This document shows, one piece after another, positions 32,909 through 38,167 of a stretch of DNA of 47,140 nucleotides. Origin of the DNA: Ignisphaera sp. (lineage in GTDB: Archaea > Thermoproteota > Thermoprotei_A > Sulfolobales > Ignisphaeraceae); assembly GCA_025058535.1 (NCBI GenBank), contig JANXEL010000099.1, positions 1-47,140 of the forward strand, read 5' to 3'. How positions within the stretch are numbered: the stretch's first letter is position 1; the number at the start of each line of letters is the position of its first letter. A model generated the notes under the pieces. It searched no databases and had not been told where the DNA came from. It saw nothing but the letters and a program-made list of their open reading frames with translations. Both the position numbers and the translations under genes were made by a program.

Positions 32909-34606
32909 TTGAGAAGCAGTCTCACAGTGTTTTGCATAGTCCTATTACTCTCCACATCAGTGCCTACAAGTATACCAACTAATACTGTGGATGTGTGGTT
33001 CTTAGGCGTTGAAAGCAGCAATCCTTCTTTGGGCGTCGCTATGAAAGCTCGTGTACAGATCCGTAACTCTTCATCACATAGAATTTCCATTCATAATGTC
33101 AATTTTGATAGAACGGTCTTTTACTCCTTTTTGTTAGCTGGCTATGCTATTAAGTACGTGTGCGGTCTGGATGTGGATAGAATTTTAGTTGATATCCATA
33201 TCAATGATTATAAGCAGGTGAAGGGTGCCAGTGCCTCACTGGCGTACGCAATGGCCGTTCTAAAAGCATTAAATAAAATCAATGTAACTGGTGCTCAATG
33301 GGGAGCGTCTGGCATCACTTCTATAGATGGATTTATAGATGCCGTTGGAGGCCTTCATACAAAAATTAGGACGGCGAAAGAGGTAGGTGTTGAGACGGTG
33401 TACATCCCCATGATCAATGGATTTAGAGATAATTTGAATGGTGAGGCTACCAGGGTCATCCGAGTTGCCTCCTTAGCTGATCTATGTTGGGATCGCTTGT
33501 CCGTCAATAACATCTCCATAGAACCTTCTCTAGAGGAGTTTGCAGTAGTAAATGAGTTCTTTGAGCATAGAGCCATAGAATTTTTATATAGAATTGAAGA
33601 CCTCGTAGGTAGATTCCCAAACGATATGAGGAACTCTCTAGCCCAACTGTATAGAGATCTTTCAATAAATGTGAGTAGGGCGTTGGAGAAAGGCCACGGA
33701 TACACAGCTGCAAATTACGCATTTCTAGGGTATATCCGGCTAATGCGCGAGTATTTAGAGCTGGACACCACAGTATCTGATTATTTGATGAAGGAAAGCG
33801 AAGATGCTGTTAAAAATGCTTTGAGTGTATTCAATAGCTTCAGATATATTCGCACCTCAGCTATCCCACTGCTGGTAGTAATTCTTGATAGAATTGCTGA
33901 AGCACAATTCTATATAAATCTCTATAAAAATCTTACCAGAGCTCCAGTACAATCGCCGCAATCTATTTTGGACACATTAACAAGAGCTCACGCCAGAAGC
34001 CTGACTATAGACATTTGGCTGGATCTTCTAAGACTAGTGAACAGTAGCCTGGTTTCGAATGGTGGGGATGGCCAATTCGTGGCATTTAATAGGGTGTATG
34101 CAACAGCACTAAACACACTAAGGGCTGTGAGTCTCACGATAGAGTGGAGCCAAGAGCTCGCGCCTCTATCCCTCTCGGCAATAGCTGCAACACGCGGTAC
34201 TTTAGCTAAACAGTTAGACAATATATCGCGCTCAAAGGTGACCAACAGTCTTAGAGAGCTATACAGGATTCACAGCAGTCATCTGGATACCAACACCAGG
34301 GTCATCCCCTACATGTACTACATCTACGCCGAGGATCTGCAGCTGGATGGGAGTAGTGACTACATAAACATATTATCGATATCCACACTCATATTGGCTG
34401 TTACAAACATCATTAGAGATGCTCTAGATAGAGGCGACCTAGTGATGTATATGGAGCCAAATTATGTAGGAATTCGGCCGTCATATGATATTAAGACCAT
34501 TGCACTACCTCTGAATATTGTTGTAATGTTACTTCTCCTAGTGCTGTTGCTTCATATAGTTGAAAAGGGTTTTAGGCCTACTTATGCTACCTCCAAAGCT
34601 ATCTAA
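32909..34606 (+). CDS. Exported, membrane-anchored Lon-like (S16) serine protease
   Basis: A 565-residue protein matching the archaeal COG1750 type of Lon-related proteases without an ATPase domain. Signal peptide: residues 1-24. The protease domain covers about 28-180: VKGASASLAYAMAVL gives the catalytic Ser (S108), and VGGLHTKIRTAKEVG the Lys (K152), matching the Ser-Lys dyad of Lon. The long helical middle has unknown role. A C-terminal membrane segment (PLNIVVMLLLLVLLLHIVEKG, about 536-556) anchors it, so the protease faces outward. Start TTG or GTG choices near 32909 are uncertain. The last 69 bases overlap the convergent UDG gene. Confidence 0.85.
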   Translation: MRSSLTVFCIVLLLSTSVPTSIPTNTVDVWFLGVESSNPSLGVAMKARVQIRNSSSHRISIHNVNFDRTVFYSFLLAGYAIKYVCGLDVDRILVDIHINDYKQVKGASASLAYAMAVLKALNKINVTGAQWGASGITSIDGFIDAVGGLHTKIRTAKEVGVETVYIPMINGFRDNLNGEATRVIRVASLADLCWDRLSVNNISIEPSLEEFAVVNEFFEHRAIEFLYRIEDLVGRFPNDMRNSLAQLYRDLSINVSRALEKGHGYTAANYAFLGYIRLMREYLELDTTVSDYLMKESEDAVKNALSVFNSFRYIRTSAIPLLVVILDRIAEAQFYINLYKNLTRAPVQSPQSILDTLTRAHARSLTIDIWLDLLRLVNSSLVSNGGDGQFVAFNRVYATALNTLRAVSLTIEWSQELAPLSLSAIAATRGTLAKQLDNISRSKVTNSLRELYRIHSSHLDTNTRVIPYMYYIYAEDLQLDGSSDYINILSISTLILAVTNIIRDALDRGDLVMYMEPNYVGIRPSYDIKTIALPLNIVVMLLLLVLLLHIVEKGFRPTYATSKAI

Positions 34607-35236
34607 TACACCTTTGATAAGCTCAAAATCGCTTTCAAGGAGCTTTTTAAGCTGTGGATTATATAATGCAGCAGCTGGATGTAGTGTTGGTATAACAACA
34701 GCCTCTAGACCAAGTATATTCATCTTATACACTCTTCCTCTCATCCTACTAATGCCGCTCCACTCCATACCGCCCATAGAGAAGATCTTCCTACCCGCAA
34801 TGTTACCTAACGTAACTATAGCTCTAGGTTTAAGAAGCCTCAATTGGGCCTCCAAGTACACGCTACATAGTGATATTTCATCATCACTGGGCTCTCTGTT
34901 GTTCGGAGGTCTACATTTAACAACATTCGTTATATATACGTTCCAACGTGGAACACCAGCGCTTTCCATAATTACTGTTAAGAGTTTCCCAGCTGCACCA
35001 ACAAATGGTCTGCCCATCTCATCCTCAGTAGAGCCAGGAGCCTCACCAATGAGGATTACCTGAGATTCCCTGCTTCCTTCACCTGGAACCGCATTTCTCC
35101 TAGATCTATGGAGGCTGCACCTCCTGCAGTTTCTAATAGCATTTTCAAGCTCATCCCAAGAGATAAAGGAGGATACAGCGCCCCACCTCCTGAGGCTAGC
35201 ATTAGCACACAGCAAATTAGCTTTTTTACCTCTCAT
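34538..35236 (-). CDS. udg: Family 4 uracil-DNA glycosylase (Fe-S)
   Basis: A 232-residue glycosylase removing uracil arising from cytosine deamination, important at high temperature. The 4Fe-4S ligands C37, C40, C108 and C124 are present (NCRRC, VVKCRPP, LCSVY). Motif 1 is GEAPG at 64-68 and motif 2 is HPAAAL at 186-191. Family similarity begins near residue 27 (WDELENAIRNC), so the first 20 or so residues are an extension or the start is internal, e.g. a TTG. Its 3' end overlaps the Lon-like gene by 69 bases, both coding frames being real. Confidence 0.92.
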   Translation of the reverse strand: MRGKKANLLCANASLRRWGAVSSFISWDELENAIRNCRRCSLHRSRRNAVPGEGSRESQVILIGEAPGSTEDEMGRPFVGAAGKLLTVIMESAGVPRWNVYITNVVKCRPPNNREPSDDEISLCSVYLEAQLRLLKPRAIVTLGNIAGRKIFSMGGMEWSGISRMRGRVYKMNILGLEAVVIPTLHPAAALYNPQLKKLLESDFELIKGVLDSFGGSISRPKTLFNYMKQQH

Positions 35237-35467: not shown

Positions 35468-35634
35468 TTACAGCTGGTGTGCCTATATCTATTTATGTGA
35501 ATTTCGCCATATCTGCACCACAGTGCGTGTCTGCTATTTCTGTTACCAGAGAGTAATGCTGATTATCCTAATTACCAAAGCTGCATAGTGCACTGAAGAG
35601 TAGAAGGGATGATGTGGTCGACGTATACCGATAG

Positions 35635-35679
35635 ATGAGGAGGGGTCGATACCCTGACCAATAGCGAAAGGCCCCTCAT
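35635..35679. other. Imperfect inverted repeat between convergent genes
   Basis: ATGAGG (35635-35640) plus GG pairs with CCCCTCAT (35672-35679) with one bulged A. Inside, GGTC and GACC (35644-35647, 35657-35660) can pair. It ends at the stop codon of the minus-strand methyltransferase and may be a shared terminator or a small structured RNA. Confidence 0.35.
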
Positions 35680-36302
35680 TAGTAGAAGGAAAACTTTCTG
35701 CTACATAGATTTCTCTCTATTGAATTAAGCTCATCCTGATTAACACACTCAATTTTTCTTGCACTTGGATTAGAAATTCCTATAGCGTAGAACCATACCA
35801 GCCTGTCGTGGTCGTTCTCATCAACTAGGCTTTTGACAAAAAATGGGCTCCACCCCCTTACCGCAAAATCAAGTGTAACCACAATTGTGCCTGGATCAAA
35901 CTCTGTCTCTAGTTTATGTGAAAGCTGTTCTAGTGTTGATGGATACAGGAATAGGTATACTATTGTAGGTCTCGGTACAACTCTTCTAAAATCCATAGTG
36001 AAGAAATCTGTGCAATAGATTTTAATTCTATCCCTCACATTCATAGTTTTCGCTGCAATTTCTACAATGTTACATAGAGTTCTATTTAATTCTACGCATA
36101 TACCGAGAGCACCGTACTTACAGAACTCCAGCAGCACTCTACCATCACCACACCCGAGATCTGCCACAACATCGTTTTCCCCAACTCCGAGGGCGTGCAA
36201 TAGATAGTCTATGACAATGCTAGGTGTTGGCACCCAGGGAACGACAGACATGGACCTTACCACAGATAGTGCATCACTCACCTCAAAAGAGTAGGAGAAC
36301 AT
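35679..36302 (-). CDS. Protein lysine methyltransferase-like (aKMT family)
   Basis: A 207-residue SAM methyltransferase. The opening VVPWVPTPSIVIDYLL, motif I VVADLGCGDGRVL (about residues 45-57) and ICVELN match the crenarchaeal aKMT/Dot1-like family, which methylates lysines of chromatin proteins such as Cren7 and many others. VYLFLYPSTLEQL fits the YLL(x) strand after motif IV. Known members are about 160 residues, so the C-terminal 45 are extra. The gene is divergent from LysRS and the C/D RNA. Confidence 0.75.
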   Translation of the reverse strand: MFSYSFEVSDALSVVRSMSVVPWVPTPSIVIDYLLHALGVGENDVVADLGCGDGRVLLEFCKYGALGICVELNRTLCNIVEIAAKTMNVRDRIKIYCTDFFTMDFRRVVPRPTIVYLFLYPSTLEQLSHKLETEFDPGTIVVTLDFAVRGWSPFFVKSLVDENDHDRLVWFYAIGISNPSARKIECVNQDELNSIERNLCSRKFSFY

Positions 36303-36360: not shown

Positions 36361-36421
36361 ACTAGATGATGAAAGCGCTCTTCGTTGATAAACGTGATGA
36401 AAAGCCATCCGCCTGAATATC
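36361..36421 (+). ncRNA. Box C/D 2'-O-methylation guide RNA
   Basis: All four boxes are in order. C is ATGATGA (36366-36372), D' is TTGA (36385-36388; consensus CTGA), C' is GTGATGA (36394-36400) and D is CTGA (36413-36416). Both guide spacers, AAGCGCTCTTCG and AAAGCCATCCGC, are exactly 12 nt, the archaeal norm, and D' and C' are five bases apart. By the box D plus five rule, the D guide would methylate the A in 5'-GCGGAUGGCUUU-3' and the D' guide the central G in 5'-CGAAGAGCGCUU-3'. The former resembles the conserved GGAUGGCU segment near the 5' end of archaeal 23S rRNA, from memory. A TATATAC at about 36308-36314 could be its promoter. Confidence 0.85.
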
Positions 36422-36607
36422 TGCACTTTTATTGAAGATCGTGAGTTTAACTTCAATCCCTAAACTCCAGGACACTCTTTGGTACTGATGCTCACCTCTG
36501 CACGTATTATAGTACGCTAATCTCTGTGGAATCTCTTAGGATGGTGAATCCTTTAGGTGGAAAGATATTTTAGCTATATCTTTGAGAAGTATACACTCAG
36601 TAGTGTG

Positions 36608-38167
36608 ATGCTGATGGTAGAAAAACATAGGTTTTGGAACCTTATAGCGCTCGGCATAGATCCGTATCTAACTGAGTACGGATATGAAATATCTACAACC
36701 GTACTAGAGATAAGGAGTAGGTATAGCTATCTTAGTAGCGGTGAAGAGGCCAAAGATTTCCACAGCATAGCAGGTAGGATTATGGGTTTACGTAGGCATG
36801 GTAAGATAACATTTGCTGTGCTTGACGATGGTACTGCTACAATACAGCTTGTGTTCAGATACGATCTGCTTGGTGAGAGTCTTTGGAAAATTGTTGAGCT
36901 GCTGAATACTGGCGATATAGTAGGTGTTAAGGGGAGGCCTATGAGAACACTGAGGGGAGAGTTATCCATACTAGTTAGCGAGCTATCCATACTGTCTATC
37001 ACATGGAGGGACTACCCTGAAAAGTGGCATGGTTTAGCAGATACTGATAAGAGGTATAGGCTCAGATATCTTGATATAATGATGAACGAGAGGATTAGAA
37101 AAGCAATTATATCAATGCACAGAATAGAAAAGAGCTTCAGAGACTTCCTAGATTCCAAGGGCTTCATAGAAATTCACACACCCAAGCTTCAGCCAATCTA
37201 TGGAGGTGCGCTAGCAAGACCTTTCACAACAAGAATGCACGCTTTAAACAAAACTGTTTACCTGAGTATAGCACCTGAGACCTACCTTAAGCGGGCAGTT
37301 GTTGCAAATTTGTACAGGGTTTACGAAATAGCTGTTTGCTTCAGAAATGAAGACATAGATGCACAGCACTATCCAGAATTTATTCAAATCGAAATTTACC
37401 AGGCGTTTGCCGATTGGAATGAGATGATGAAGCTGGTTGAGGATATGATAGCCTATAGCATTAAGAATGTTTTTGGTGACTATAAGGTAGAGGTAGAGCA
37501 CAATGGTGATAAGATAGAACTTGATTTCAAGCCACCGTGGAAAAGAATACCGCTCGAGGAAGCTGTTGAAAGCTACGGCGGTATAAAGGTAAAGGGTAAA
37601 AGCTACGAAGAGTTGGTTGAGACGGCCAGGGAACTTGGTATAGAGGTAGACGATTTTAGAAGAGGAAAAATAATTGAAAAAATGTTTGAAAAGTTTGCTG
37701 AACCTAAACTTGTGCAACCAACATACGTAGTACTGTATCCAAGGGACATCTCACCACTTGCAAGACCATATAGAAATGACCCTAGCTACTCTGAGAGATT
37801 CGAATTATTTGTGCGGAGCCTCGAAATTGGTAACGGATATAGTGAGTTGAACAATCCTATAGTTCAGTACTATTTCTTTAAGAAGGAAGAAGATCTAAGG
37901 CTCAAATCGGTGCATAGATTTGCAGGTGAGGTAGAGTACCATCCAATGGATAAGGATTATGTAAGGGCGCTCGAATACGGTATGCCTCCTACGGCAGGTG
38001 TGGGGATAGGCATTTATAGACTCATCATGATCCTCACAGGTCTGCCCAGCATAAAGGATGTAATACCATTTACAATTGTTGAACCAGATGAATTCAAAAC
38101 CATTGCTGAGAATCATGAAGATATTATGAAATATTACATTGAGAACCTGCAATTGAATAAAATATGA
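36608..38167 (+). CDS. lysS: Lysyl-tRNA synthetase, class II
   Basis: About 520 residues from ATG 36608 (or ATG 36614); a GTG at 36557 would add 17 residues that have no family match. The OB-fold anticodon domain is near residues 50-150 (AGRIMGLRRHGKITFAVLDDG). Motif 1 lies near IHTPKLQP, motif 2 is VYEIAVCFRNEDID, and motif 3 is AGVGIGIYRLIM with the conserved Arg. It charges tRNA-Lys. Many archaea use a class I LysRS instead; the class II form here fits crenarchaea. Full length is 536 codons if GTG is used. Confidence 0.93.
   Translation: MLMVEKHRFWNLIALGIDPYLTEYGYEISTTVLEIRSRYSYLSSGEEAKDFHSIAGRIMGLRRHGKITFAVLDDGTATIQLVFRYDLLGESLWKIVELLNTGDIVGVKGRPMRTLRGELSILVSELSILSITWRDYPEKWHGLADTDKRYRLRYLDIMMNERIRKAIISMHRIEKSFRDFLDSKGFIEIHTPKLQPIYGGALARPFTTRMHALNKTVYLSIAPETYLKRAVVANLYRVYEIAVCFRNEDIDAQHYPEFIQIEIYQAFADWNEMMKLVEDMIAYSIKNVFGDYKVEVEHNGDKIELDFKPPWKRIPLEEAVESYGGIKVKGKSYEELVETARELGIEVDDFRRGKIIEKMFEKFAEPKLVQPTYVVLYPRDISPLARPYRNDPSYSERFELFVRSLEIGNGYSELNNPIVQYYFFKKEEDLRLKSVHRFAGEVEYHPMDKDYVRALEYGMPPTAGVGIGIYRLIMILTGLPSIKDVIPFTIVEPDEFKTIAENHEDIMKYYIENLQLNKI

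Follow-up and report, generated by a model that had tools for sequence, protein, structure and literature searches.

In archaea, C/D box small RNAs (sRNAs) are bound by L7Ae, Nop5 and fibrillarin on their C/D and C'/D' motifs, and the ribose at the fifth place of the target is methylated. Members of the class carry the boxes C (RTGATGA), D', C' and D (CTGA) in order, guides of about 12 nt abutting D' and D, complementarity to an rRNA or a tRNA that spans the fifth nucleotide from the box, and counterparts in related genomes. The sRNAs described in PMC4644070 follow an N plus five rule and include double guides, cases in which one guide was replaced by another, and single guides that address two rRNA sites. 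In Pyrobaculum, as recounted in PMC7994747, most rRNA-targeting sRNAs are dual guides for sites within 100 nt. The tRNA-targeting sRNAs that this source takes from Lui et al. 2018 have one guide for a tRNA and another with no target given in that account. The sRNA described here resembles those of both sources in box order, guide length and the fifth-nucleotide rule, as well as in having two close candidate rRNA sites and one guide that is kept while its partner changes. It differs from the sRNAs as these sources present them in that its D' guide also fits a tRNA perfectly.

We analysed a stretch of 47,140 nucleotides from Ignisphaera sp. (contig JANXEL010000099.1), hereafter the window. A first-pass annotation had placed a C/D box guide RNA at 36361..36421 (+), with C, D', C' and D in order, both spacers 12 nt long and one box base off consensus, and exactly this can be read from the letters of the sRNA core at 36366-36416 (+). 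The core consists of a C box (ATGATGA, 36366-36372), a 12-nt D' guide (AAGCGCTCTTCG, 36373-36384), a D' box (TTGA, 36385-36388) whose first base is the single departure from the box consensus (CTGA), a 5-nt spacer (TAAAC, 36389-36393), a C' box (GTGATGA, 36394-36400), a 12-nt D guide (AAAGCCATCCGC, 36401-36412) and a D box (CTGA, 36413-36416), all on the + strand. When both strands of the window were scanned for C, 9-14 nt, D', 2-10 nt, C', 9-14 nt and D, this was the sole arrangement with two or fewer mismatches, and one further arrangement, at 35609, appeared at three. Dinucleotide shuffles (n=60, both strands) contained a mean of 0.0 such arrangements at up to two mismatches and 0.25 at up to three. 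No Rfam family reached its gathering score at the locus, and we rejected membership in a named family on this ground; the best matches, sR17 (RF01144, 18.2 bits against a gathering score of 36) and sR5 (RF01304, 17.6 bits against 40), belong to the same class and align over the boxes but differ in their guides. We found no published name for this sRNA.

Homologues are present across the genus and beyond it. A DNA search of 60 genomes found matches to the sRNA in eight, the genome of origin among them, and a sequence profile built from these eight found matches in 31 of 214 genomes searched in the order and in 8 of 11 of the genus, counts from which search filters drop some weak matches at such small size. 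When a public genome collection was scanned for the C box followed by the D' guide and the D' box, 14 stretches turned up, ten of them in Desulfurococcales or Thermoproteota metagenome-assembled genomes. The other four were bacterial, and we took them as chance because by eye they show no C' and D in order. Gene order is conserved as well: the copies lie upstream of lysS in all seven genus relatives, with lysyl-tRNA synthetase (LysRS) beside each. Boxes, spacing and conservation together support the assignment of 36361-36421 to the archaeal C/D sRNAs.

The first-pass annotation had set the sRNA between an aKMT-like gene and lysS. The right-hand neighbour is indeed lysS (36557..38167, +, the longest open frame), whose product matches PF00152 at 271 bits and whose true start may instead be the ATG at 36611; it is followed by genes for a Band_7 protein and an NfeD-like protein. 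The left-hand name did not find the same backing, as the divergent gene at 35679..36302 (-) matches only Methyltransf_25 in Pfam, at 20.7 bits, under the cut-off of 27, and we call it methyltransferase-like. This gene stands beside the sRNA in six of seven genus relatives, and in G001 it was not found within the 3-kb sRNA locus. Further to the left, a frame for a DUF5622 protein (PF18533, 35108-35467, +) overlaps that of a uracil-DNA glycosylase (34538-35236, -), and both proteins are also encoded near the sRNA in genus relatives.

The arrangement at 35609 is a second, conserved C/D sRNA (35609-35657, +) with three box mismatches. It reads C box ATGATGT, guide GGTCGACGTATA, D' box CCGA, 3 nt, C' box ATGAGGA, guide GGGGTCGATACC and D box CTGA, and counterparts with the same guides in place were observed in G008, G002, G005, G006 and G007, across the methyltransferase-like gene from the first sRNA; G004 has a partial counterpart. 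Its guides fit two places in the genome's own 23S that lie 25 nt from each other and, in G005, correspond to E. coli U2504 and position 2479, close to the peptidyl transferase centre. Because the pairs adjoining the D and D' boxes are missing, this predicted fit is a moderate one.

The first sRNA is probably a double-guide archaeal C/D box sRNA, with the D guide directed to the 23S equivalent of E. coli A28 and the D' guide most likely to the equivalent of G54. The box order with its 12-nt and 12-nt spacing, one base off consensus and unmatched in 60 shuffles, argues for this reading, as do the homologues across genus and order with their fixed LysRS neighbour. The genome's rRNA is divided between two contigs, with 16S and the 5' part of 23S on one (C92) and the remaining 23S on another (C9), and a piece between them is perhaps missing. 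The sequence GGATGGCT, which the first-pass annotation had named as a conserved D target near the 5' end of archaeal 23S, is present near the 5' end of the genome's own 23S gene. There the D guide meets GTGGATGGCTTG in 11 contiguous pairs, beginning at the nucleotide that adjoins the D box, with a single G-U pair at the second position and a mismatch at the twelfth. As good a score was reached by a fraction of 0.0068 of 5,000 shuffled D guides against the genome's own rRNA and by 0.0096 against rRNA or tRNA. The site, GGAUGGCU, is the best match of this guide among the genome's own rRNA pieces and 40 of its own tRNA places, and by pairing the fifth nucleotide is the very adenine for which methylation had been predicted; alignment to the K-12 gene, including that of G005, makes it the equivalent of A28. 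The genome's own 23S carries T where 24 other genomes and G166 carry C, and the genome's own D guide has A opposite. The length of the duplex, its rarity among shuffles and this matched pair point to A28 as the predicted target. Against the genome's own tRNAs the best score of the D guide was 13.0 (shuffle fraction 0.59), and we rejected it as a tRNA guide.

The D' guide, for which the first-pass annotation had named no target, is the more conserved half of the sRNA and presents two candidate targets. Aligning both guides to the genome's own rRNAs and tRNAs, the check that had been proposed with the first-pass annotation, gave a 23S match for D and matches to both tRNA-Ala(GGC) and 23S for D'. 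With its own tRNA-Ala(GGC) the D' guide forms ten Watson-Crick pairs, from G19 to U28 in our own numbering of this tRNA, flanked by one mismatch at either end; ten base pairs is a published upper limit for duplexes of such guides (Yang 2016, as cited in PMC7089733). The fifth place is G22, the predicted 2'-O-methyl site. The genome's Ala(TGC) and Ala(CGC) genes have A instead of G26, which would break the pairing. Of 5,000 shuffled D' guides, a fraction of 0.0134 scored as well against the genome's own tRNAs and 0.049 against tRNA or rRNA. The match to 23S (GGAAGGGCGCGG) is weaker, with nine pairs made up of four, one U-G and a further four, one mismatch before and two after them, and it places the equivalent of E. 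coli G54 at the fifth position, 25 nt from the D site and so within the 100 nt described for double guides. The better fit of the D' guide to tRNA-Ala weakens the double-guide reading, as does the fact that its 23S score was reached anywhere in rRNA by 0.41 of 5,000 shuffles and, taken alone, does not exceed chance. When the search was narrowed to 100 nt around the D site, only 468 of 20,000 shuffled guides reached this score, and this, together with the D guides of family f2, speaks for use of D' on 23S. The D guide shared by f2 members G164, G018, G038 and G166 is unrelated to that of the present sRNA, and it forms 11 Watson-Crick pairs in the 23S of three genomes (G056, G028 and G166 itself), at a place that corresponds to E. 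coli G121 and lies 66 nt away from the D' site. Two other f2 members (G145 and G161) have D guides that make ten pairs with 23S, and G047 and G163 have other D guides. By predicted pairing, the partner D guides of two families thus both point into one stretch of 23S. In G047 (at 418 of L052) and G163 (at 432 of L053), two genomes of another family than the present one, we observed a further C/D-like arrangement with guides AGGCAGGCGTCA and CATACCCCGGA, some 1.1 kb away from the sRNA homologue.

We parsed the guides of 23 of the 31 profile-matching genomes, leaving out G011, G014, G019, G175, G176, G177, G179 and G185, whose matches were partial, carried other guides, lacked a clean order of boxes, or came with no locus or legible sequence. 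In 18 of the 23 homologues the full ten pairs with tRNA-Ala are kept, and each of these 18 genomes has a matching tRNA-Ala-like D arm. Position 2 of the D' guide, which pairs with tRNA-Ala only, is A in 22 of 23. At position 7, 21 of 23 have U, which faces A23 of the tRNA, even though a C there would suit 23S better. The conserved U faces G in 23S and A in tRNA-Ala, and the two pairings are compatible. We therefore entertain, tentatively, a bifunctional D' guide that would serve both 23S GAAGGGCGC (G54 equivalent) and tRNA-Ala GAAGAGCGC (G22). Were this true, one sRNA would couple ribosome and tRNA modification, and the lineages of G001 and G012 would have dropped the tRNA half through a change from U to C: position 7 is C in both, a base that interrupts the tRNA-Ala pairing and makes the 23S pairing complete. 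The tRNA-Ala genes of G001 are unchanged, and our D-arm pattern found no tRNA-Ala in G012. These two genomes and the convergence of two families of D guides on one 23S stretch speak against a mixed guide, in which D would act on 23S and D' solely on tRNA-Ala, with 2'-O-methyl G22 as its product and the 23S match of D' a coincidence. The tRNA pairing and its conservation would fit such a guide well, and one guide complementary to a tRNA arm is what the tRNA-targeting sRNAs of PMC7994747 have; yet the second guide of those sRNAs is described there as targetless, whereas the D guide here has its 23S match, and the mixed guide seems unlikely to us. Separately, the D' guides of G015 (L058), G013 (L059) and G016 (L061) have CTCTGC in place of CTCTTC and are complementary to GCAGAGCGC. 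The change breaks one pair with both tRNA-Ala and 23S, and these genomes may have acquired a different target, perhaps the D arm of another tRNA. We found no paper on Gm22, tRNA-Ala and C/D guides in archaea, nor one on C/D sRNAs in Ignisphaera, in a literature search confined to the text of papers.

The double-guide reading is also weakened by departures of the D guide in five relatives. Among sRNA-bearing genomes, their own 23S was available for G000, G005, G008 and G166 (G003 gave a 23S match but has no sRNA), and the 23S 5' ends of G001, G002, G006, G007 and G010 were not found. Opposite the 23S base that is T in the present genome, the 12-nt D guides of G001, G002, G005, G006 and G010 carry G, with the 23S sequence assumed for all of these but G005. 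Within the 23S duplex, an A of the D guide stands opposite G in G002, G005 and G006, and the D guide of G007 is one base short. In G008 an A faces C where the A of the present guide faces T, and nine Watson-Crick pairs with GGGGATAACTTC, by position probably 16S, score slightly above the 23S site (ten pairs, three of them G-U). For the G005 guide, the best-scoring uninterrupted match in that genome's rRNA stretch and 46 tRNA places has only eight pairs, which suggests either an A28 guide with a mismatch or one whose target was lost. For G012, G013, G015, G047 and G163, the D guides had no clear target in the rRNA and tRNAs (both strands) of other genomes used as stand-ins. The short match in G005, and the split of the present genome's 23S over two contigs with part possibly missing, would suit a D target other than A28, either an mRNA or a stretch of rRNA that the assembly lacks; set against the 11 pairs with the genome's own 23S and its T met by the guide's A, we regard this as improbable.

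The double-guide reading is further weakened by G004, where the gene order is intact but only a box-like remnant of the sRNA was recognized by eye, and by G003 and G009, in which the stretch upstream of lysS differs and holds no such sRNA. This remnant and these losses could also mark a chance or decayed C/D-like stretch from which no working guide is made, but with boxes and one guide kept in eight genomes of the genus amid diverging flanks, and an arrangement unexpected by chance in 60 shuffles, we consider that highly improbable.

From the observed boxes, spacing, conservation, gene order and complementarity, we infer transcription, assembly, methylation and the choice of D' target. As in the rest of the class, L7Ae, Nop5 and fibrillarin would come together on the C/D and C'/D' motifs, the two guides would pair with their targets, and fibrillarin would methylate the ribose at the fifth nucleotide from D or D'. 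The D guide would thereby direct methylation of the 23S adenine equivalent to A28. The D' guide would most likely act 25 nt further on, at the G54 equivalent, in the manner of ordinary rRNA double guides, and its perfect complementarity to the G22 region of tRNA-Ala(GGC) may allow use on the tRNA as well or instead. On this sequence evidence, the sRNA probably acts as a 23S double guide, with a D' half that perhaps also serves tRNA-Ala.

The sRNA looks like a real, conserved and ordinary archaeal C/D sRNA that steers rRNA methylation; the fit of its D' guide to both 23S and tRNA-Ala would be unusual, provided that both serve as targets. With it, a lineage of archaea that are mostly uncultured gains a conserved C/D sRNA whose gene order is fixed. 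The predicted sites at the 5' end of 23S are exact enough to test, and the double fit of the D' guide makes the notion of one guide with two targets testable. The family as a whole appears to keep one guide while the partner guide switches between sites within one stretch of 23S.
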